A stretch of DNA of 33,499 bases from a virus, in the IMG/VR virus record IMGVR_UViG_3300017917_003111, positions 1 to 33,499 of that record, one strand, 5' to 3'. The notes under the pieces were generated by a model, which was not told the origin of the DNA, did no database searches, and worked only from the letters and a program-made list of their open reading frames with translations. Below are positions 2,817-28,196 of this stretch, one piece after another. Both the position numbers and the translations under genes were made by a program. Within the stretch, counting starts at the first letter, position 1; the number at the start of each line of letters is the position of its first letter.

Positions 2817-3061
2817 CATTAGAACAATTAATTGACATTGCATTTGCACACGAAGAGGGAGATCCCTTTGACTGGGGAGTATTTAAGAAAGGTCAAGAGG
2901 AAGCTATGAAAATGATCGGTGCCAGTGTTTTGGAAATGTTTGACAAAGAAGAAATCTCCGATGCTGATCGATTAATAATGTTAGCTACGATTACCAAATT
3001 AACAACTGAGAATATGATTTTGCATTCAAAGATCTTGACAGCAAGTCAAAAAGGTAGTTAA
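2804..3061 (+). CDS. Small hypothetical protein, 85 aa
   Basis: An 85-residue, mostly helical and acidic protein (for example EEGDPFDWGVFKKGQEEAMKM). I do not recognise a named domain; the DPFDWG segment reminds me of small conserved proteins in T4-like cyanophages. A ribosome-binding site (GAGGATAGG) overlaps the end of the DUF454 gene. Its TAA stop is the first part of the TAAATA motif that precedes the tmRNA gene. Confidence 0.7.
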   Translation: MAKITLEQLIDIAFAHEEGDPFDWGVFKKGQEEAMKMIGASVLEMFDKEEISDADRLIMLATITKLTTENMILHSKILTASQKGS

Positions 3062-3064
3062 ATA
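3059..3064 (+). promoter_or_regulatory. Possible T4-like late promoter ahead of the tmRNA
   Basis: GTTAAATAAC overlaps the preceding stop codon and lies directly upstream of the acceptor piece of the tmRNA. If used, the tmRNA would be a late transcript. No sigma-70 promoter with good spacing was found in this spot. Confidence 0.3.
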
Positions 3065-3065
3065 A

Positions 3066-3430
3066 CTGTATTGTTGTAATTCCTTTGTAGTGAAGGCGTT
3101 GTGGACCCGGGTTCGATTCCCGGCATCTCCACCAGAAGTGTTTGTTTAGGGTGATATGTATGGCGTAACAAACGCCAGAGGATTGGAATTCCCGACCTGT
3201 GAACAACAGGACACTTCTGATGGGGATGACAAGGTTTCGACATGGCGAGATAGCGAAAGAGGCAACACGGTAGGCGATGACCGTTAATCAAGCAAATTTA
3301 TAAATGCAGAAGAAAACGCATTTGACTTTAGCGCACTAAGCTTCACAGGTAATACTGTAGGCGGTCGTGTTGCTGTAGCAGCCTAAGAAACTGCGAGTCT
3401 GGGGTAGTTATACCTTATAACCCAAAATAA
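3066..3430 (+). ncRNA. ssrA: Circularly permuted (two-piece) tmRNA
   Basis: tmRNA frees stalled ribosomes and adds a degradation tag. The order is permuted: the acceptor piece comes first. It has T-stem CCGGG (3107-3111) / CCCGG (3119-3123) around TTCGATT and ends in CATCTCC-ACCA (3124-3134). The coding piece starts with GGGGATG (3222-3228), which pairs with CATCTCC in 7 bp including a G3-U70 wobble, the alanyl-tRNA synthetase identity element. It continues GACAAGGTTTCGACATGG, the conserved tmRNA 5' region. P2 can form from CAACA (3263-3267) with TGTTG (3072-3076) and AAAG/CTTT. The intervening piece is closed by AGAAGTGT (3134-3141) / ACACTTCT (3211-3218). The tag frame starts at GCA 3306 after TAAAT and stops at 3384-3386: 26 residues beginning AEENAFDF and ending RVAVAA. 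Confidence 0.93.
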
Positions 3431-3433
3431 CAG

Positions 3434-3457
3434 AACCCGCTTCGGCGGGTTTCTTTT
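3434..3457 (+). terminator. Rho-independent terminator of the tmRNA
   Basis: AACCCGC (3434-3440), loop TTCG and GCGGGTT (3445-3451) form a perfect stem followed by a T-rich tract. Confidence 0.9.
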
Positions 3458-3471
3458 TGGAATGAAAATAT

Positions 3472-3501
3472 TTGACATCATCAGTGAAAACACTATATAA
3501 T
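3472..3501 (+). promoter_or_regulatory. Sigma-70-like promoter for the outer-membrane protein gene
   Basis: TTGACA (3472-3477) and TATAAT (3496-3501) are 18 bases apart. The expected start of transcription is near 3508. It follows directly on the tmRNA terminator. Confidence 0.8.
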
Positions 3502-4196: not shown

Positions 4197-4730
4197 ATGA
4201 AAACAGTTGGTGATAAGTTAGAAAAATTTGCCGTAACAGGCGTTAATCCAGGTAAAGATGACTTCTTTACCATTACAGACGAGTCATATGCAGGCAAGTG
4301 GAAAGTAATCGTTTACTATCCAAAGGACTTCACATTCGTATGTCCTACAGAAATTGTAGCCTATGATAAACTACACAGCGACTTTGCTGATCGTGATGCT
4401 GTATTGCTGACTGGTAGTACAGACAATGAGTTCTGTAAACTTGCATGGCAAGCCGCTCACGAAGATCTCAAGAAGATCAAGCATGTTCAGTTCGCTGACA
4501 CACAGCGTGGCGACCTAAGCCTAATCAATCAGTTGGGTGTATTCTATGCTCCAGCAGGTGCCGCACTTCGTGCAACATTCATCGTTGACCCAGACAACGT
4601 TATCCAACACGTTACTGTGAACAACTTGAACGTAGGTCGCTCACCAGAAGAAACATTGCGTGTTCTCGATGCGCTACAAACTGGTGAACTATGTGCATGT
4701 AACCGCACCGTTGGTGGCGAGACACTTTAA
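4197..4730 (+). CDS. ahpC: Alkyl hydroperoxide reductase / peroxiredoxin AhpC
   Basis: A 177-residue 2-Cys peroxiredoxin that reduces peroxides in the cytoplasm. The peroxidatic cysteine is in DFTFVCPTE (about residue 49). The resolving cysteine region is ELCACNRTVGGETL at the C terminus. This form, with CAC near the end and a partner AhpD rather than AhpF, resembles the AhpC type found in actinobacteria and some proteobacteria. The ribosome-binding site AAGGAG is 7 bases upstream. AhpD is encoded 220 bases further on, with two micro-ORFs between, and the set looks like one operon. The gene is normal in length and motifs, so it should be active. Confidence 0.95.
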   Translation: MKTVGDKLEKFAVTGVNPGKDDFFTITDESYAGKWKVIVYYPKDFTFVCPTEIVAYDKLHSDFADRDAVLLTGSTDNEFCKLAWQAAHEDLKKIKHVQFADTQRGDLSLINQLGVFYAPAGAALRATFIVDPDNVIQHVTVNNLNVGRSPEETLRVLDALQTGELCACNRTVGGETL

Positions 4731-4873: not shown

Positions 4874-4954
4874 ATGAGTTTTCAAGAACAATTTGCATAT
4901 TTAAAAAGATGGCATTGTCCATCATGTAACTCACAGACAGGAGATAAAAAATGA
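4874..4954 (+). CDS. CxxC micro-protein between ahpC and ahpD, 26 aa
   Basis: A 26-codon frame with a good ribosome-binding site (TAGGAGTGATAAA-ATG). Its stop overlaps the ahpD start as ATGA, the classical arrangement for translational coupling. The peptide contains KRWHCPSCNSQTG; the W-x-C-P-x-C pattern resembles a redox-active thiol motif or half of a zinc knuckle. It may be a leader that couples ahpD translation, or a small redox partner. Too short for a family assignment. Confidence 0.55.
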   Translation: MSFQEQFAYLKRWHCPSCNSQTGDKK

Positions 4955-5466
4955 CAGCATGGGTAGATCAACTTAAAGATACTATTCCTGACTATGCCAA
5001 GGACACACGTCTTAATATCGATGCAGTAGTCAAGCGTTCGACTTTAGCACCAGAAGAAGCTGAAGCTGTAGCTCTGGCAGCAGCCTTTGCCACAGGTAAC
5101 CCAAAATTGTGGACTTGGATGCAAAGTCAGATGGCAGATCAGAAAGAAGCTGAAGCCGCAATCACAGCCGCAAGTCTAATGGCTATGAACAATGTTTGGT
5201 ATCCCTATGTTGAAATGGCAGACGATGCCAATCTAACAGGCTTACCAGCTCAGTTACGTATGAATGCCATTTCAACACACGGCGGCACAACCAAAGCACG
5301 ATTTGAAGCGTACTCACTTTCTGCCAGTATTGTGGGCAAGTGCCACTTCTGTGTAAAGTCGCATTACGAAACATTAAAGAAGGAAGGCTACACAGTAGAA
5401 CAACTTCGTGACATTGGCCGAATTGCCGCTGTAATCACAGCAGTATCCAGAGTGTTAAATTCTTGA
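4951..5466 (+). CDS. ahpD: AhpD-family alkyl hydroperoxidase
   Basis: A 171-residue all-helical protein of the AhpD/carboxymuconolactone decarboxylase-like family. The active site is complete: Glu in TKARFEAYSLSAS, then GKCHFCVKSHYETL, giving the E-x(n)-C-x-x-C-x-x-x-H array of AhpD. In mycobacteria AhpD passes electrons to AhpC, so the two proteins here probably form a peroxide-reducing system. The gene starts on an ATGA overlap with a 26-codon micro-ORF. Full length, no damage seen. Confidence 0.93.
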   Translation: MTAWVDQLKDTIPDYAKDTRLNIDAVVKRSTLAPEEAEAVALAAAFATGNPKLWTWMQSQMADQKEAEAAITAASLMAMNNVWYPYVEMADDANLTGLPAQLRMNAISTHGGTTKARFEAYSLSASIVGKCHFCVKSHYETLKKEGYTVEQLRDIGRIAAVITAVSRVLNS

Positions 5467-5512
5467 TGAATCTTTAATGATTTTCAGTATGTTTTGAATG
5501 GTGGTTTGGCCT

Positions 5513-5549
5513 TATAATATTGATACATACTTGTACTACTCGAGTATGT
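5513..5549 (+). promoter_or_regulatory. pqqA promoter -10 box and leader hairpin
   Basis: TATAAT lies at 5513-5518; no good -35 at standard spacing is visible (TTGAAT at 5494-5499 is only 13 bases away). ACATACT (5525-5531) and AGTATGT (5543-5549) form a perfect 7-bp inverted repeat starting at the predicted transcription start, upstream of AAAAGGAG. Confidence 0.55.
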
Positions 5550-5570
5550 TTTATCAAAAGGAGAAACATT

Positions 5571-5642
5571 ATGTGGACTAAACCAGAAGCAACTGAAATG
5601 CGTTTTGGAATGGAAATCACTGCTTATGTAATGAATCGATAA
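5571..5642 (+). CDS. pqqA: PqqA, precursor peptide of the cofactor PQQ
   Basis: A 23-residue peptide, MWTKPEATEMRFGMEITAY followed by VMNR. It matches PqqA from enterobacteria almost position by position: M-W-x-K-P at the start, R-x-G-x-E-x-T-x-Y in the middle, and N-R at the end, with the same total length. PQQ is built from the Glu and Tyr of the E-x-x-x-Y motif, here Glu15 and Tyr19, both present. PqqA is cross-linked by the radical-SAM enzyme PqqE with chaperone PqqD. No other pqq gene is in the window, so the host would have to supply them. It has an excellent ribosome-binding site (AAAAGGAGAAAC), its own promoter region and its own terminator. Confidence 0.9.
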   Translation: MWTKPEATEMRFGMEITAYVMNR

Positions 5643-5660
5643 GCAAACGTAATACGAATT

Positions 5661-5685
5661 AACCCGTCTATATGGCGGGTTTTTT
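5661..5685 (+). terminator. Rho-independent terminator after pqqA
   Basis: AACCCG (5661-5666) and CGGGTT (5676-5681) pair and are followed by a run of T. Confidence 0.85.
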
Positions 5686-5686
5686 C

Positions 5687-5714
5687 TTGACTTTTTATAC
5701 AAAGATGTTATACT
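5687..5714 (+). promoter_or_regulatory. Sigma-70-like promoter
   Basis: TTGACT (5687-5692) and TATACT (5709-5714) are 16 bases apart, immediately after the pqqA terminator and 30 bases before the next gene. Confidence 0.7.
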
Positions 5715-5744
5715 ATATGCTCAGTAAGAATTACGGAGATGTGT

Positions 5745-6134
5745 ATGACCATGCATTTGGAAGGCCCTTGGCTATCAACCACAGGCAAAAAGAAAGGCAA
5801 GAAGAAGTGGGCATCTGCTGAAGCCAAACGCAAAGCTGAATTTTTGGAAGAGTCTTGGAAAGAGCTCCAAAAGCGTTGGGGCATCGAAGCAGAAGAAAAG
5901 AAACGTAAACGAGCTCTCGAATCTGGCACATACACCGGACCAAAAGTAGAGACTTATCGTAGAGAAACACCCAAAATTTCCAGCTTGCCGTTTACTGCTG
6001 GACCTTGTACCAAAGCACCAGATAAAGTTTACACAGGTGACAAGATCAAGGGTATCGGTACCATGCACAAAAGTAATGCAGTTCCTATCTTTTCGGACGA
6101 AGAAGCCGTCGAGATATCCAAAATGCGTCGATAA
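5745..6134 (+). CDS. Conserved T4-like phage protein, basic, unknown function
   Basis: A 129-residue, very basic protein. It begins MTMHLEGPWLSTTGKKKG, continues with a Lys/Arg/Glu-rich helix (about residues 20-60) and ends GTMHKSNAVPIFSDEEAVE-ISKMRR. I recall this N- and C-terminal pattern from conserved hypothetical proteins of T4-like phages of marine bacteria. Three in-frame ATG codons occur (5739, 5745, 5751); 5745 is chosen because GGAG at 5735-5738 is then 6 bases away, while it abuts the first ATG. The basic character suggests nucleic-acid binding, but this is inference. It is transcribed from its own promoter. Confidence 0.82.
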   Translation: MTMHLEGPWLSTTGKKKGKKKWASAEAKRKAEFLEESWKELQKRWGIEAEEKKRKRALESGTYTGPKVETYRRETPKISSLPFTAGPCTKAPDKVYTGDKIKGIGTMHKSNAVPIFSDEEAVEISKMRR

Positions 6135-6150
6135 TTGCCTATTTTTATAG

Positions 6151-6429
6151 TATAATTACTGATACATGATATATATAACTACGTTTCGCAAAGAAACTAA
6201 GATAGTTGGTTCAAAGTATGTCACAAGCAGAAAAGGACCCGCGAGTCTTGGCCTATGAGAAACCCGTGAGATTCGGGCGGTCAAGTTCGCCAAAGGCAGT
6301 ACGAGTTATGAGATTGTATTGCTGATGGAGACAACTACACGAACCCAGGGTTCTTTCAAGAGCCTCGTGAAGTTAACTCCCTTAATGTAATGTCGTAGAT
6401 AGTATCAAAATATCGATACGAAAGACGAC
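6151..6429 (+). ncRNA. Candidate structured RNA or long structured 5' leader
   Basis: About 315 bases without a convincing gene lie between 6134 and 6450. A TATAAT box is at 6151-6156. After it come: (1) AACTA-c-GTTTC-gcaaa-GAAAC-taaga-TAGTT, two nested stems (about 6177-6206); (2) TTGGC ... GCCAA enclosing CCCG/CGGG (about 6248-6292); (3) ACGAG (6301) ... CTCGT (6364-6368) enclosing GAACCC/GGGTTC; (4) GTCGT ... ACGAC enclosing GTATC/GATAC (about 6393-6428). Four independent nested stems in a row are unlikely by chance. It could be a free phage RNA or a cis-regulatory leader of the hydrolase gene at 6450. It does not match any riboswitch or RNase P core that I know. Confidence 0.6.
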
Positions 6430-6449
6430 ACCAAATGAAAGGAGGACTT

Positions 6450-14797: not shown

Positions 14798-15097
14798 ATG
14801 TCCACAGCACCAACTGTAGAAGAAAAAGTGGTAGTATCATTACAGCCACCTAAACTTTGGAAAGTAGTATTTTTAAACGATGATCAAACTCCTATGGAAT
14901 TGGTAATTGAACTACTGACTAAAATCTTCAAACACACAGAATCTAAAGCCAAAGACATTACTTTAGAAATTCACGAAACAGGCAGCGGTATAGCAGGAAT
15001 TTATCCTTTCGAAATTGCAGAACAGAAAGGCATTGAAGCCACAGGTGTAGCAAGACAGAACGGTTCACCTTTGCGCATACAGGTAGAACAAGAATGA
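14798..15097 (+). CDS. clpS: ClpS, N-end-rule adaptor for ClpAP
   Basis: A 99-residue adaptor. The core KLWKVVFLNDDQTPMELVIELLTKIF matches ClpS, with the Asn-Asp-Asp that binds the N-terminal amine of substrates, and the later IHETGSGIAGIYPFEIAE keeps the conserved His and G-x-Y-P. The N-terminal tail (about 20 residues) that feeds ClpA is present. It redirects host ClpAP to proteins with bulky N-terminal residues. With the tmRNA tag and DnaK/Hsp20 in the window, the phage carries several parts that steer host protein quality control. The stop overlaps the heme oxygenase start as ATGA. Confidence 0.94.
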   Translation: MSTAPTVEEKVVVSLQPPKLWKVVFLNDDQTPMELVIELLTKIFKHTESKAKDITLEIHETGSGIAGIYPFEIAEQKGIEATGVARQNGSPLRIQVEQE

Positions 15098-15657
15098 GTC
15101 TAAGAGAAATTACAAAAGATTTACATGCAGATGCAGAACGCACAGAATTTGCAGGAAAATTACTAAGCGGTAATATCAGCGTAGAAGATTACGCCAACTA
15201 TCTTTATCAAATGGTTTTAATTTACCCAACTATCGAAATGGGTAACAAGATACAAGGTAACTTTGCCAACTTGCCGGACATTGAAAGAACTTGGCCGATC
15301 TATCAAGATTTTATAGAGTTAGCAGGCAAGGACAATCCTAATTATAAATGGTTACCAAGCACCATTGCTTACCATAATTATCTATTAGAGTTGCTAAATG
15401 ATCCAGAACGTAAGCATCTTGTTAAAGCACATCTGTATTGCAGACATATGGGCGACCTGTACGGTGGCCAGATGATTGCCAAGCGTGTACCGGGACAAGG
15501 TAGATTTTATAAATTCAAAGACCCAGAAAAACTCAAAGAACAGATCCGTGCAGAACTTACAGATGATCTTGGAGATGAAGCTCGTGTAGCTTTTGAATGG
15601 GCTATCAAAATCATGAGAGAGCTAAACAATGAGCCAAGTATGGGACACACTAATTGA
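15094..15657 (+). CDS. ho1: Heme oxygenase
   Basis: A 187-residue heme oxygenase that opens heme to biliverdin, CO and iron. The proximal His is His11 in EITKDLHADAERTEF, and the distal helix carries the hallmark GDLYGGQ (residues 120-126) preceded by YCRHM. The length is near the usual 190-240. Phages of cyanobacteria and of some heterotrophs carry heme oxygenase, usually with a bilin reductase. Here the reductase gene follows with a 29-base overlap, so the product is probably passed on. Coupled by ATGA to clpS. Confidence 0.94.
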   Translation: MSLREITKDLHADAERTEFAGKLLSGNISVEDYANYLYQMVLIYPTIEMGNKIQGNFANLPDIERTWPIYQDFIELAGKDNPNYKWLPSTIAYHNYLLELLNDPERKHLVKAHLYCRHMGDLYGGQMIAKRVPGQGRFYKFKDPEKLKEQIRAELTDDLGDEARVAFEWAIKIMRELNNEPSMGHTN

Positions 15658-16309
15658 AATCCAGCATTTACTCGAAACGTCGTTTGAGAAAACTGGAGTC
15701 GAATCCTTCGAGCCTGGAATGGCTCGTTTTAATCAGCCTGGTTGGGTTAATCGTGTATGGACTGGTGATAGGTACCGCCGGGCCCACGTTGATGTCGTTG
15801 ATGCTCGAAGCACTAAAGGACTCTGGATGATGCATTGTTGCATCTTCCCACATATACATAATCCTGCTCCAATTTACGGTTTTGATGTTATAGCTGGTAA
15901 GAATAAAATTACCGGCTGTTTTCACGATTATAGTCCCGCTGGCGATCCAGCTCATCCTATGATTGAATGGTTTGGCAATGAAGTGTCGAAATTAGAATGG
16001 CGCAGAGAGCGTGAACTACCGGACTGGGCACAGCGTATTTTTACCAAACATATGGTAGCTGCGGGTAATGTACAGCAACAAGACGAATTAGATCAAATTT
16101 TTACATTAGCAAGAACTACAATAGATCACTACTTAGACACAGTAGCAGAAACTAATAATACTGCGGCAGATACCACATTTGAGCAGAATTATTATGCTCA
16201 AAATCAGAAGCAAAACCCACATACACCGCGTGTAATGGTCAGTTTAGGGCTTTCTGAAGAGGATGTAAGGGTGTTTATACAGGATTGCCTGTTCCCTGAA
16301 ATACGATAA
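15629..16309 (+). CDS. Ferredoxin-dependent bilin reductase (PcyA/PebS/PcyX family)
   Basis: A 226-residue enzyme that reduces biliverdin with electrons from ferredoxin. The FDBR fold is recognisable: WMMHCCIFPHIHNPAPIYGFDVIAGKNKI, with His69 and Asp86 in the positions of the PcyA catalytic His88 and Asp105, then FHDYSP, and the C-terminal YYAQNQKQNPHTPRVMV...VRVFIQDCLF that matches the Y-x(3)-Q-x(2)-N-x(2)-T signature. Which bilin is made cannot be told from sequence alone; oceanic-phage PebS and PcyX give phycoerythrobilin. It overlaps the heme oxygenase gene by 29 bases. The absence of photosynthesis genes makes the use of the pigment unclear. Confidence 0.92.
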   Translation: MSQVWDTLIEIQHLLETSFEKTGVESFEPGMARFNQPGWVNRVWTGDRYRRAHVDVVDARSTKGLWMMHCCIFPHIHNPAPIYGFDVIAGKNKITGCFHDYSPAGDPAHPMIEWFGNEVSKLEWRRERELPDWAQRIFTKHMVAAGNVQQQDELDQIFTLARTTIDHYLDTVAETNNTAADTTFEQNYYAQNQKQNPHTPRVMVSLGLSEEDVRVFIQDCLFPEIR

Positions 16310-18214: not shown

Positions 18215-19315
18215 ATGATTAAGACCGCTATAGCTCTTCTTGCAGTAACAATGTTAGGAGGATGTGCTGTACTCCAGAGTACCGGTGTGACAGAAACAAT
18301 GCCTAAAGTTACCAAGAACATGATGCAGAAAGAGTTTGATGCTATTCCTCCACCTGCCGCTGGTAAGCCCGTGAGTGTGGCTGTGTATAGTTTTCAAGAT
18401 AAAACAGGTCAGCGCAGACCACAGGGCAATGTGGCCAGTTTAAGCATGGCAGTTACACAAGGTGCAGAAACATTTTTAATCAAAGCTCTACAGGATGTAG
18501 GTCGTGGACAATGGTTTGAAGTAGTAGAACGAGTAGGCATTGACAATTTGACCAAAGAGCGATTGATCATTCGTCAGATGCGTGAAGCCTACGAAGGTAA
18601 CAATGCCAGACAGCTATTGCCCATGCAATTCGCAGGTATGATCGTAGAAGGCGGTATTATTGGTTACGACAGCAGCACTTCCTCTGGGGGCATAGGACAG
18701 AGAATATTCGGCATAGGCAAACAGACACAGTGGTCAACTGATACTGTTACAATTAGTTTAAGAGCGGTGAGTGTTAACACTGGCAAAGTTTTGATGAGTG
18801 TCACTGTGCAGAAAACAATATTAAGTTCTGCAGATTCAGTGACAGCGTTTAAGTTTTTTGACAAAGGCACACAGGCATTTGAAGCAGAAGCAGGATTAAC
18901 CATAAACGAGCCAGGAACCTATGCTGTAAAATCAGCTATAGAAATGGCTGTGGTAGAATTAATCAAAGAAGGAGAGCGTAAAGGTGTATGGAAATTCAAA
19001 TCAGATGATCCAACTCCTGCGCCACAGATTCAACCTCAAGTAGAAGCTGTGCCTCCTACAAAAGAAGAAGTCAAATCCGAACCCATACAACAAAAAGAAC
19101 AAAAAGAAATTGTAGTGGGCAAGGTCGTGGATTGGAGCAATCTGCGTAAATCAAGAAGTGCTAACAGTGAACGAGTAGTTAGCGTTGCACCTGATACTGA
19201 AGTAGAAGTTTTACAAAGTCAAGGTGAATATCATTTAGTTAGAACTGAAGGAAAAGAGGGATGGATCCATAAAAGAAACATTAAGGTGCAGACTGCACCA
19301 AGGAGCGGAAAATGA
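18215..19315 (+). CDS. csgG: CsgG-family outer-membrane secretion lipoprotein with C-terminal SH3 domain
   Basis: A 366-residue lipoprotein. The lipobox is MLGGCAVLQ (Cys16). The CsgG domain spans about residues 30-265: VSVAVYSFQDKTGQRRP, RGQWFEVVERVGIDNLTKERLIIRQ, FAGMIVEGGIIGYDS, the TQWSTDTVTISLRAV barrel strands, and ELIKEGERKGVWKF at the end. CsgG forms the nonameric pore that exports curli subunits. A Pro/Gln/Glu linker (about 268-300) then leads to an SH3-like domain with NLRKSRSANSERVVSVAPDTEVEVL and EGWIHKRNIKV. E. coli CsgG lacks this domain. The SH3 part may bind peptidoglycan. The stop overlaps the next gene by 4 bases. Confidence 0.9.
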   Translation: MIKTAIALLAVTMLGGCAVLQSTGVTETMPKVTKNMMQKEFDAIPPPAAGKPVSVAVYSFQDKTGQRRPQGNVASLSMAVTQGAETFLIKALQDVGRGQWFEVVERVGIDNLTKERLIIRQMREAYEGNNARQLLPMQFAGMIVEGGIIGYDSSTSSGGIGQRIFGIGKQTQWSTDTVTISLRAVSVNTGKVLMSVTVQKTILSSADSVTAFKFFDKGTQAFEAEAGLTINEPGTYAVKSAIEMAVVELIKEGERKGVWKFKSDDPTPAPQIQPQVEAVPPTKEEVKSEPIQQKEQKEIVVGKVVDWSNLRKSRSANSERVVSVAPDTEVEVLQSQGEYHLVRTEGKEGWIHKRNIKVQTAPRSGK

Positions 19316-20100
19316 AAAAGAAACACTACATTATAGCCACTGCCATAGCGGTTATGTTTGTAGGATCAAAAGCGTGGGCCACTGACAACAGCATTTACAT
19401 CGAACAAGCCGGTGATAATGCTACTGTGTCTGTCACACAAGACGGTGCAGGCAATCGAGTTAGAGGCATACAGGGAGTAGGTACTGGTAACACAACACCT
19501 GCTCGTATAACTGGCGACGGTGTCACAGTTGACATTACACAAGTTGGTGCAGGTAATACATTAAACTTGGGTATGAATACTACCACTGCTGCTGGCGCAA
19601 GTCCTACAAGTGTAACTTATAATGTGTCAGGAGGTAACAACACTGGTACCATTAATTTAAATAACTCAGGAACTGGAACTAACGCCAGCACTGCTCTAAG
19701 TATCACACAGAGCGGAGGCGGAAACACTTCCAACGTTAATATACTTGGTAGCCAGAATACAGCCACAGTAAATCAAAGTGGAGGTAACGCATCATTTACT
19801 ACCACAGTAAATGCTGACGAAACCACTCAGACTGTCAATACCAGCGGAGGTACTGGAAACTCAGTTACTACTAATCTAACCAGCAACAAAGGATCAGTAG
19901 CAGTGACTTTCACAGGAGCTTCTAATACTGCTAATATAACTCAAAGCGGAACAGCCGGCGTCACTGGACACTCAACGACCATTAATGCCAACGGTTCCAG
20001 CAATAGTTATACTGTGCAACAGGGAGGTACTATTGATACTACTGTGAATATCCAAACCACAGGATCAGGAAATACATTTAGTATAAACACACATAACTAA
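19312..20100 (+). CDS. Curlin-repeat (CsgA/CsgB-like) protein
   Basis: A 262-residue secreted protein. A signal peptide (IIATAIAVMFVGSKAWA) is followed by DNSIYIEQAGDNATVSVTQ, DGAGNRVRGIQG: the curlin pattern with N-x-x-x-x-Q-x-G. Imperfect repeats of the strand-turn-strand type with Q-x-G-x-N, Q-S-G-G-N and T-Q-S-G continue to the end (for example ITQVGAGNTLN, ITQSGGGNTSN, VNQSGGNASF, ITQSGTAGVT). Composition is dominated by Thr, Asn, Gly and Ser. It should polymerise as an amyloid fibre after export through CsgG. The repeats are less regular than in E. coli CsgA, so nucleator or fibre roles cannot be told apart. Confidence 0.88.
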   Translation: MKKKHYIIATAIAVMFVGSKAWATDNSIYIEQAGDNATVSVTQDGAGNRVRGIQGVGTGNTTPARITGDGVTVDITQVGAGNTLNLGMNTTTAAGASPTSVTYNVSGGNNTGTINLNNSGTGTNASTALSITQSGGGNTSNVNILGSQNTATVNQSGGNASFTTTVNADETTQTVNTSGGTGNSVTTNLTSNKGSVAVTFTGASNTANITQSGTAGVTGHSTTINANGSSNSYTVQQGGTIDTTVNIQTTGSGNTFSINTHN

Positions 20101-20108
20101 GGTGGACA

Positions 20109-21215
20109 ATGAAACTATGGATGGTCGTACTATGCGCACCCTTGCTGAGTATATCGCAGAACTGCATCGCCGCGATCGGGACTATTACCGATCAAGCAAA
20201 CGCACCTCCGTCGATACAGAGAAAGAAGGAAATGATTCGAGGCCAGAAGGGCACATCTCTGCAAATGATGGACACGATAAGGACTCAGCAAGGTAAGGTT
20301 GGCATTACCTTTGAAGACAAGACTAAAGTACAACTAACTGAAAATAGTCGGTTAGTAATAGATGATTTTGTCTACGATCCCAAGAAGGGTTCTGGCAAAC
20401 TTGCGGTCAAAGTGGCCATGGGCACTGTGCGTTATGCTTCTGGACAGATAGCCAAAAATTCACCGCAGAGCATAGCAGTAAACACACCATCAGCAACGAT
20501 ATCTGTACGAGGCACAGATTTTACTGCCACGGTGGATGAATTAGGTCGCAGCACTATTATTCTACTGCCCAGTTGCCCAGCAGACTACAAAGATATAGAA
20601 CGAGATTGTAAGACTGGAATGATCTGGGTAGAAAGCGATGAGGGTCGAGTGGTATTAGATCAACCTTTTCAAGCTACTAAAGTTGACAGCAGAGATAGTA
20701 AACCTTTGAAACCAGTGATTGTTAGTCTTACAGAAGATGCTATTAATAATATGCTGATAGTCAGTCCTCCTAAAGAGCTACGAGAAGATAAAAACGAAAA
20801 ATTAAGTCTTAATAAAAGTGCTCTTGATGTAGATTTTCTTGCTGCACAGGGACTGATCAATGTGTTAGACAAAGAAGAAAAAGAGCAATATCAAGACAGA
20901 CTGAGCAAGAATTTTCTTGACAGCGATTTCCTTGCCAATGTGTTAGATCTTGTTAATGCACAGTTGGCTGCACAATTAGATCTCTTAGGTAAAACCAAGT
21001 CAGGACTACTACCAGACTATGTGGCCACTTCAGGAGTCACTGCTTTTGTAGACGATTTGATCGTTGAACTGTGCAGAGACAACGGCAGCGATGTAATGTG
21101 TATAAGCACTCCTAAGAATCAAAACTCTACGGTGTATATGACACAAGGAGCTGTGGAAGTAAAAAATAGAATTAATTCTGGATCAGGTACCGTAATCAAC
21201 TTAATTCAACGATGA
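20109..21215 (+). CDS. Secreted FecR-domain protein
   Basis: A 368-residue exported protein. A signal peptide (MVVLCAPLLSISQNCIA) is followed by a FecR domain (about 25-150): KGTSLQMMDTIRTQQGKVGITFEDKTKVQLTENSRLVIDDFVYDP, GTVRYASGQIAK and VNTPSATISVRGTDF. The C-terminal 200 residues are mainly helical with no known domain. Outside siderophore signalling, FecR domains are often encoded beside CHASE2 cyclases and surface proteins, as here. No anti-sigma region is present, so this is not a classical FecR regulator. Ends on an ATGA overlap with the next gene. Confidence 0.88.
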   Translation: MKLWMVVLCAPLLSISQNCIAAIGTITDQANAPPSIQRKKEMIRGQKGTSLQMMDTIRTQQGKVGITFEDKTKVQLTENSRLVIDDFVYDPKKGSGKLAVKVAMGTVRYASGQIAKNSPQSIAVNTPSATISVRGTDFTATVDELGRSTIILLPSCPADYKDIERDCKTGMIWVESDEGRVVLDQPFQATKVDSRDSKPLKPVIVSLTEDAINNMLIVSPPKELREDKNEKLSLNKSALDVDFLAAQGLINVLDKEEKEQYQDRLSKNFLDSDFLANVLDLVNAQLAAQLDLLGKTKSGLLPDYVATSGVTAFVDDLIVELCRDNGSDVMCISTPKNQNSTVYMTQGAVEVKNRINSGSGTVINLIQR

Positions 21216-22555
21216 AAATACTTTCTACATTTATAATCTATATGCTGATAGTGTTGGGCGTACAGACTTGTACGGTAGAATTAGCTCGAGCACAGGGTGT
21301 ACAAGGATTAACCTATGAAACTTATGCAGGCACCGGAGCCAGCCCCAGTAGAAATCCACTGGCTAATCCCACAGTAAGAAGCACAGGAGTGTCAGCAAAC
21401 ATTAACTATCCATCAGGATCGTTCGGTAATAATATTTTAGGCTCTGGATTAATTGACAGAGTTATTGTAAAATGGACTGGATGGATTAATATTCCCACAT
21501 CAGGAACATATCAGTTCGGAGGTTCTGCTGACGACGGAATTCATGTTACTATAGATAATACTGTAGTCATTGACAGCTGGATAGACAGCGGTAATGCTTT
21601 TAGAACAGGAACTCCTATTACATTAGGAACAGGTCCTGTGCCTATTACAGTTTGGTATTACGAAAATGGAGGAGGTCAGACCATAGTGTTTCAATGGTTA
21701 GTCAATGGCACCTGGCAAGTAGTGCCTACCACAGTATTTGCCACACAAAGCACTTACTGGACTCCAGTTGTACCTCAGTATACATCGGGCATTACGATTC
21801 AACAACAGACAAGAAAAAATTCTGCTAACACAAGACAAACAGCCGTAACAAACAATTCTATTTTTATAGATCAAGTAGGCGATAATAATACCATAACTGT
21901 CAGTCAACAGAGCTCAAATAATCAAGTTCGAGGTGTTGGGCAACAGGCAGCATCTATACAGGGAAATCTTAACGAAATAACCGTAAGACAGGGTACACAA
22001 AGTGGCAGTATCACTGGACGTAATCTATTAGAATTAAGTGTAAATGGCAATAGCAATACATTAAATCTAAATCAAGGAAGAAACAGTGATGGCACTAATC
22101 CTGGTGCAGACAGCAATAATCACTATCAAATGCTAAATCTCACAGGTTCCACAAATACCGTAACTACGGTACAGAAAGACGGCAGTAATACCGCCCAAGG
22201 GCATTTTATGGAAAATACTATTTCTGGTAACAGCAATATTATTAATCTAACACAGCAGGGCAGTGGTGGAAAAATATTATTCGGTAATGTCAACGGAAAT
22301 TCAAATTCGGCAACAGTAAATCAGAAAGACGGTGGACAACACTACTTGGATTTTGCTCTAACAGGCAATGGTCATAGTTTAAATGTCATACAGGAAGGTA
22401 CAGGATCTCATAAAGCAACTATAAGTCTTACTAATGCAGGTGGGGCTGCCACTGTGAATCTCAATCAACAAGGTGTAAACAATCAAACCTACAGTATCCA
22501 ACAAAGTTGTGCTAATCCCAGCGGTTGCACAACTACCGTAACACAAAGTCAATAA
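21212..22555 (+). CDS. PA14-domain protein with curlin repeats
   Basis: A 447-residue secreted protein. Signal peptide about residues 1-27. Residues about 30-180 form a PA14 (beta-barrel, often glycan-binding) domain: GLTYETYAGTG, VKWTGWINIPTSGTYQFGGSADDGIHVTIDNTVVIDSW, VWYYENGGGQTIVFQW. From about 205 come curlin repeats: NNSIFIDQVGDNNTITVSQQSSNNQVRGVGQQ (very like the start of the upstream curlin gene), then VNGNSNTLNLNQG, ISGNSNIINLTQQGSGGK, VNGNSNSATVNQKDGG and others, ending SCANPSGCTTTVTQSQ. This could be the curli subunit that places an adhesive domain on the fibre. Fusion of PA14 with curlin repeats is unusual. Confidence 0.88.
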   Translation: MKILSTFIIYMLIVLGVQTCTVELARAQGVQGLTYETYAGTGASPSRNPLANPTVRSTGVSANINYPSGSFGNNILGSGLIDRVIVKWTGWINIPTSGTYQFGGSADDGIHVTIDNTVVIDSWIDSGNAFRTGTPITLGTGPVPITVWYYENGGGQTIVFQWLVNGTWQVVPTTVFATQSTYWTPVVPQYTSGITIQQQTRKNSANTRQTAVTNNSIFIDQVGDNNTITVSQQSSNNQVRGVGQQAASIQGNLNEITVRQGTQSGSITGRNLLELSVNGNSNTLNLNQGRNSDGTNPGADSNNHYQMLNLTGSTNTVTTVQKDGSNTAQGHFMENTISGNSNIINLTQQGSGGKILFGNVNGNSNSATVNQKDGGQHYLDFALTGNGHSLNVIQEGTGSHKATISLTNAGGAATVNLNQQGVNNQTYSIQQSCANPSGCTTTVTQSQ

Positions 22556-27837: not shown

Positions 27838-28119
27838 TTAATCCCTTCTTGCGTCATTCTTACCATCTGCACGAGCAATACGATCAGCATCGGGTCTTAG
27901 ACCCAAAGCATTTGACACAATAGTATCAATACGGATTACGTCGTGATTCATGGTTTTTACACGATTGTCTAACATGGTAATAATTCCGCTCATACCTTTG
28001 ACAGCACTGGTAACTGAGCCCAGAACTAATTTAAGTGTTAGAAATACGAAATAACCGCCCGCTAATGCAGCCGCAATTGGAAAACCCAATTCAGCTACTA
28101 ATTTGAAAAACTCGCCCAT
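27838..28119 (-). CDS. Holin-like single-span membrane protein B
   Basis: A 93-residue paralogue of the product of 27192-27500: one membrane span (LVAELGFPIAAALAGGYFVFLTLKLVL), then a helical tail (MSGIITMLDNRVKTMNHDVIRIDTIVSNALGLRPDADRI). The ATG at 28119 (minus strand) is chosen because TTGGAG is 6 bases away; the open frame reaches a TTG four codons upstream, but that would overlap the ribosome-binding site. It is the first gene of the minus-strand operon. Holin or accessory lysis protein is a guess from size and topology. Confidence 0.8.
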   Translation of the reverse strand: MGEFFKLVAELGFPIAAALAGGYFVFLTLKLVLGSVTSAVKGMSGIITMLDNRVKTMNHDVIRIDTIVSNALGLRPDADRIARADGKNDARRD

Positions 28120-28141
28120 TTTTCGCTCCAATTTATATGTG

Positions 28142-28147
28142 TATTTA
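28142..28147 (-). promoter_or_regulatory. Possible T4-like late promoter for the minus-strand genes
   Basis: On the minus strand GTTAAATAC lies 23 bases before the ATG at 28119, resembling the CTTAAATAC in front of csgF. No sigma-70 promoter was found on this strand here. Confidence 0.35.
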
Positions 28148-28152
28148 ACATG

Positions 28153-28196
28153 TTGACAGAGTTTTTAACTGATGCTATAATATATACATATATTAT
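28153..28196 (+). promoter_or_regulatory. Consensus sigma-70-like promoter with palindrome over the start site
   Basis: TTGACA (28153-28158), 17-base spacer, TATAAT (28176-28181). ATAATATAT (28177-28185) and ATATATTAT (28188-28196) form a perfect 9-bp inverted repeat with AC between, covering the -10 box and the expected transcription start. It may be an operator or only AT-rich melting sequence. Confidence 0.82.

Follow-up and report, generated by a model that had tools for sequence, protein, structure and literature searches.

The window analysed here, a stretch of viral DNA of 33,499 nucleotides, carries on its plus strand a short series of genes in which a very small one, pqqA (5571..5642), is placed among genes of two other kinds. 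An AhpC-type peroxiredoxin gene (4197..4730; Pfam AhpC-TSA, E=9.5e-22) is followed by a gene of the AhpD alkylhydroperoxidase family (4951..5466), which lies directly upstream of pqqA; synteny in relatives supports both assignments. The AhpD gene product matched TIGR00777 with E=6e-36 but under the curated cut-off, and the core domain TIGR00778 over its cut-off. Downstream lies phrog_27048 (5739..6134, plus strand), a conserved phage gene of unknown function with about 600 viral relatives, which we used as the synteny anchor. The phage genes around pqqA comprise those for NrdB, endolysin-like proteins and CsgG in addition to phrog_27048, and the CHASE2 cyclase of the window is common to Melnitz and HTVC008M. 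Relatives of phrog_27048 are present in Delftia phage PhiW-14, in Acidovorax phage ACP17 (about 156 kb) and in contigs of IMG/VR that reach 364 kb, so that the window is likely to be one piece of a large phage genome.

The pqqA reading frame runs from ATG to TAA and codes for 23 amino acids, MWTKPEATEMRFGMEITAYVMNR. It matched Pfam PF08042 (PqqA) with E=2.4e-10 and 40.6 bits (cut-off 21.1), well past chance, and the NCBIfam PqqA equivalog TIGR02107 with E=7e-10 and 38.5 bits (cut-off 20), and no second PqqA match was detected elsewhere in the 33,499-base window. The peptide has the Glu-x3-Tyr pair (Glu15 and Tyr19) that becomes the redox cofactor PQQ, and its length lies within 22-25 residues. 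An earlier sequence-only reading had recognized a PqqA gene with these two residues, and the scores over both curated family cut-offs confirm it; the enterobacterial plan which it ascribed to the peptide has to be replaced by the Methylophilaceae plan. The peptide is also unusually divergent, having GMEITAY in place of GFEVTMY, and its Met14 is seen in a Nevskia PqqA as well.

The gene has its own set of expression signals, all on the plus strand. The -10 box TATAAT lies at 5513..5518, with no good -35 box upstream of it. At 5474..5490 there is a palindrome, TTAATGATTTTCAGTAT, of the consensus CTMATGA-NNN-TCATKAG, a candidate operator that may stand in for the -35 box; this motif was found de novo, and the best site in the window for its 19-nt viral matrix starts at 5473 (22.1 bits), 40 nt upstream of the TATAAT. 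A stem-loop at the 5' end of the predicted leader (5522..5555; -10.3 kcal/mol, z -2.5) shows compensatory changes in relatives: the 6-bp stem right after the -10 box is kept across 18 leaders, with such changes in three of its six consensus pairs, and in the wider viral set leader folding gave a moderate signal (mean z-score -1.2). Stems of this kind at the 5' end often stabilise mRNA, and the leader stem probably does so for pqqA. The predicted Shine-Dalgarno sequence AAGGAG (5558..5563) lies 7 nt upstream of the ATG, and an intrinsic terminator (5661..5690) consists of an 8-bp stem at 5661-5681 and a T-run, the region 5643-5692 folding with z -4.3. The TATAAT box, leader hairpin, ribosome-binding site and terminator that had been proposed as a separate transcription unit are thus all real, while the extent then given to the unit, 5513-5685, missed the operator, which lies outside it.

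How is this small gene distributed among related phages? Relatives of phrog_27048 and of the AhpD gene were gathered without reference to pqqA as a held-out set. A pqqA gene lies within 6 kb in 18 of the 80 nearest phrog_27048 loci and in 11 of 80 AhpD loci, in every case with Glu15 and Tyr19. Absence of the peptide from all related phages, which the sequence-only reading had named, together with lack of expression, as evidence against itself, is contradicted on the sequence by those 18 of 80 nearest loci. Most copies are syntenic, the usual gene order being AhpC-AhpD-pqqA-phrog_27048-SleB, and ahpC or ahpD was detected near pqqA in 17 of the 18 loci versus 5 of the 62 loci without pqqA (Fisher p=4e-12, in a test that ignores kinship). 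This association suggests a module of peroxide defence and PQQ supply. Two large relatives without pqqA at this place have one elsewhere; several other relatives of 200-320 kb have none anywhere, as expected if their hosts differ. Like other auxiliary genes, then, pqqA is a host-type gene set amid phage genes and kept in phage relatives.

A tblastn search with PqqA against 50,697 phage records matched P19250A, Venkman, MEP301, MEP401, MEP402, four Melnitz strains and one uncultured podovirus. Thus pqqA is present in 9 of the 9 cultured Methylophilales (OM43/LD28) phages reached, a set outside which the isolates MEP431-434 fall, and is annotated as such in none of them because gene callers skip reading frames of 23 residues. 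These isolates span at least four unrelated lineages, namely the P19250A/Venkman type, the MEP301 type, Zobellviridae and T4-like phages (Kyanoviridae). The Acinetobacter PqqA as query gave the identical phage set and nothing more, and PqqA queries found no match in related Pelagibacter, Roseobacter, Delftia and Acidovorax phages of the same collection. Two INPHARED records named Acinetobacter phage MD-2021a matched in both searches and were rejected, since they look like mis-binned chromosome; one of them, CAKLQF020000010.1, holds a ppk-pqqABCDE region and is an apparent bacterial contamination. In IMG/VR, searched by DNA patterns, at least 120 contigs have pqqA, a lower bound on its prevalence, with 61 distinct viral peptides among the matches listed. 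Many of these peptides, including the commonest, are identical letter for letter to PqqA of Methylophilaceae hosts. Viral pqqA is far commoner than the publications on it indicate.

The sequence-only reading had taken phage pqqA to be undescribed, which two reports contradict. PqqA was described in the Lake Baikal methylotroph virus VP_266 by Coutinho et al. 2020 (PMC7678222), and viral pqqA is listed in a reservoir study of 2026 (PMC13188868). VP_266 resembles the window in having PqqA on a phage with a predicted Methylophilaceae host, where an auxiliary role in methanol oxidation was proposed for it; VP_266 differs in also encoding a methanol dehydrogenase, of which the window has none (PMC7678222). 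In the passages of that paper on VP_266 neither an operator nor a hairpin is reported, nor a selection test or an isolate survey, and P19250A is said to encode none of the PqqA and methanol dehydrogenase genes of VP_266 (PMC7678222). We found an unannotated pqqA in P19250A at about 28082-28153. No mention of a phage pqqA was found in the methylophage papers that were searched.

The second line of comparison concerned the regions upstream of pqqA, 133 from viruses and 124 from hosts, each set being run on its own in a de novo motif search. One palindrome, CTMATGA-NNN-TCATKAG, emerged from both, in 96% of the viral and 84% of the host sequences, with log-likelihoods of 810 and 858 respectively, where shuffled sequence gave 57 and 66. 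A fixed consensus of the palindrome had given only a modest signal, and this was resolved by the de novo search. Sites of 12 bits or more were detected by the matrix derived from hosts, with no viral input, upstream of 55 of 158 viral pqqA genes and in none of 706 random windows of viral sequence; in the held-out set the viral matrix at the same threshold detected them in 20 of 22 distinct units, mostly with a TATAAT 40 nt downstream, versus 5 of 400 background windows. Most of the top genome-wide matches in host genomes sit directly upstream of pqqA. Across ten genomes, the pqqA copies of Methylophilaceae and Methylophaga nearly all have the operator upstream, with the -10 box about 61 nt further on, and no operator was detected at pqqA of Paraburkholderia or Hydrogenophaga. 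Among the methylophage isolates the operator varies, being weak in Venkman and without a clear site in MEP401 and MEP402. In OM43 LSUCC0665 (875061-875316) two pqqA copies stand in tandem, and only the upstream copy has a strong operator.

The distance from operator start to -10 box differs between the two groups: of 104 viral units, 47 have 39-40 nt, and of 52 host units, 28 have 60-63 nt. The phage operator is thus closer to the -10 box by about 21-22 nt, which equals two helical turns. This phased spacing, together with the lack of a good -35 box, resembles the arrangement of an activator centred at about -42 in phages or about -64 in hosts, although a repressor is also possible as the operator-binding protein. 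The core of the operator presumably resembles a Fur box, which we treat as a lead. We found no publication on such a palindrome at methylotroph pqqA promoters, and the operator shared by viruses and hosts is new here.

The solitary pqqA genes of Methylophilaceae and Methylophaga are the nearest counterpart of the phage unit: they too stand as single genes, with the same peptide, operator and -10 box and with a folded leader. From operator start to -10 box the host genes have about 61 nt, in contrast to 39-40 nt in most phages and 40 nt in the window. PqqA usually stands in a pqqBCDE operon, a setting that is not defining and that the window does not have, and solitary copies are normal in methylotrophs. 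Methylophilaceae have 3-12 pqqA copies and one pqqBCDE set (PMC4109929). In the methylotroph genomes that we searched the number was 1-12, with 12 in Methylotenera mobilis 13.

It had been suggested from the sequence that the phage points to a methylotroph as its host, and pqqA and its operator are what support this; on these two features the host of the window would be a methylotroph. Against a firm assignment stand the window DnaK, equally close to other betaproteobacteria and to methylotrophs, and a tmRNA that differs from the Methylophilaceae type. This permuted tmRNA (3012-3477, plus strand) exceeds the Rfam thresholds of both beta_tmRNA and tmRNA_permuted. Methylophilaceae hosts score far under the cut-off met by the window, and the tmRNA is therefore not a recent copy from such a host.

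Taken together, we consider it probable that the locus is a stand-alone pqqA cassette that serves the phage as an auxiliary metabolic gene under host regulation. In this reading the palindrome at 5474-5490, centred at about -42, would be bound by a transcription factor with which the host controls its own pqqA copies; in lieu of a -35 box, this factor would recruit the host RNA polymerase to the TATAAT. The resulting mRNA, short, terminated and probably stabilised, would be translated to PqqA, in which host PqqD and PqqE would cross-link Glu15 and Tyr19, PQQ then being completed by the other Pqq enzymes of the host. This PQQ would serve methanol dehydrogenases of the XoxF/MxaF type; xoxF is the top transcript in an OM43 isolate (PMC5120137). 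Because one PqqA is consumed per PQQ, an extra pqqA would be the part worth adding and an economical way to more PQQ, and the hosts do likewise with their several pqqA copies beside one set of the other genes. We infer binding and activation at the operator, processing of the peptide by the host and a raised PQQ supply from this arrangement, and methanol oxidation may be sustained during infection as a consequence.

If the peptide itself is of use to the phage, then its codons should have been kept by selection. Glu15 and Tyr19 are kept in 120 of 120 loci among the matches listed, although the search had left both codons free. The 105 distinct 72-nt reading frames among those matches, which are related sequences and not independent events, are invariant at both residues, with Tyr coded by 57 TAC and 48 TAT. 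The pN/pS ratio was 0.27 at codons unconstrained by the first search, 0 at E15 and Y19, and 0.13 over all codons, the last value being biased low by the search pattern. The viral PqqA peptide is under purifying selection and so, like an auxiliary gene, is maintained by it. This result bears on a different reading, in which operators on replicating phage DNA act as a sponge that titrates the host pqqA regulator and the peptide is a passenger. Conservation of the operator in phages and hosts alike fits a sponge, but it would need neither a -10 box, nor a hairpin, nor a Shine-Dalgarno sequence, all of which are kept in register, and MEP401 and MEP402 retain the peptide without a clear operator; given also the selection on the peptide, we regard the sponge as unlikely. 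Another possibility is that the phage peptide is a decoy, which occupies PqqD and PqqE, blocks PQQ synthesis and stops methanol oxidation in the host. The first committed step uses PqqA as its substrate, for which a dead analogue could compete, and the window peptide is divergent. However, a decoy should lose or relax Glu15 and Tyr19, which are invariant in the 105 frames, and the commonest viral peptides do not differ from host PqqA at all, so that a decoy is very unlikely.

The remaining Pqq proteins were also sought. A search for the PqqE family in 23 records found radical-SAM proteins, none of which reached the cut-off; such matches were present in 14 of 14 control genomes too. The presence of these radical-SAM proteins in large phages of the group could be taken to mean that the PqqA-like peptide gives rise to some other modified peptide or is a signal. 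This is very improbable in our view: the residues are those of PqqA, matching host PqqA over the full length, and the distribution tracks methylotroph hosts that depend on PQQ. Of the 23 records, one has a PQQ-dependent alcohol dehydrogenase, with about 6 kb between it and pqqA. Neither PqqB nor PqqC was found in 164 viral loci, in the loci of named phages or in the window, compared with 32 and 30, respectively, of 119 host loci; the earlier statement that no other pqq genes are present holds for the window, whose 33 kb are probably just part of a larger phage genome. That the gene is host DNA captured by chance, or comes from bacterial contigs misfiled as viral, is extremely improbable in spite of the two MD-2021a records of that kind, one of which carries a chromosomal pqqABCDE operon, since pqqA occurs in nine sequenced isolates, in conserved synteny among phage genes, under purifying selection and with PqqB and PqqC in 0 of 164 viral loci.

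The preferred reading, a host-regulated pqqA cassette, may be compared with known auxiliary metabolic genes of phages, such as the photosynthesis genes of cyanophages. Viral pqqA is like them a host-type metabolic gene whose key residues are conserved in the virus; unlike the usual ones it encodes a stoichiometric substrate of 23 residues and not an enzyme, and it is seemingly under the regulator of the host. A wider proposal, to which we give about even chances, is that pqqA is near-universal in methylophages, in at least five unrelated lineages, under the host pqqA operator answering a signal of PQQ demand; that the precursor peptide, and not the enzymes, limits PQQ in infection; and that the operator defines an unrecognised regulon of Methylophilaceae and Methylophaga centred on pqqA. 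PQQ-making methylotrophs control how methanol is turned over in lakes and coastal seas, and pqqA is a sequence marker by which uncultured viruses can be tied to them. The operator common to phages and hosts makes it possible to test how pqqA is regulated in these bacteria and why they have many pqqA copies beside one biosynthetic set.

Several other features of the window were observed. Downstream of phrog_27048, the intergenic region 6151-6434 (plus strand; about 270 nt) has no Rfam match and folds with z -4.1; it shows 75-93% identity in about 33 distinct relatives, and one helix has 7-12 compensatory sequences per pair among 27. We take it for a likely structured RNA, not described before, of the phage family to which the window belongs. 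At 15094-16309 (plus strand) a heme oxygenase gene (Pfam E=3.5e-20) is followed by one for a ferredoxin-dependent bilin reductase (PF05996, E=5e-13), a pair that sits here in a phage not resembling cyanophage. Between 27050 and 28211 about 1.1 kb has no plausible forward gene and a reversed GC skew, and the single minus-strand reading frame tested there had no Pfam match. A curli-like cluster at 18215-22555 (plus strand) comprises CsgG, a curlin-repeat protein, a FecR-domain protein and a PA14-domain protein, and includes a candidate fibre subunit; according to the Melnitz paper, Melnitz is without such a subunit.
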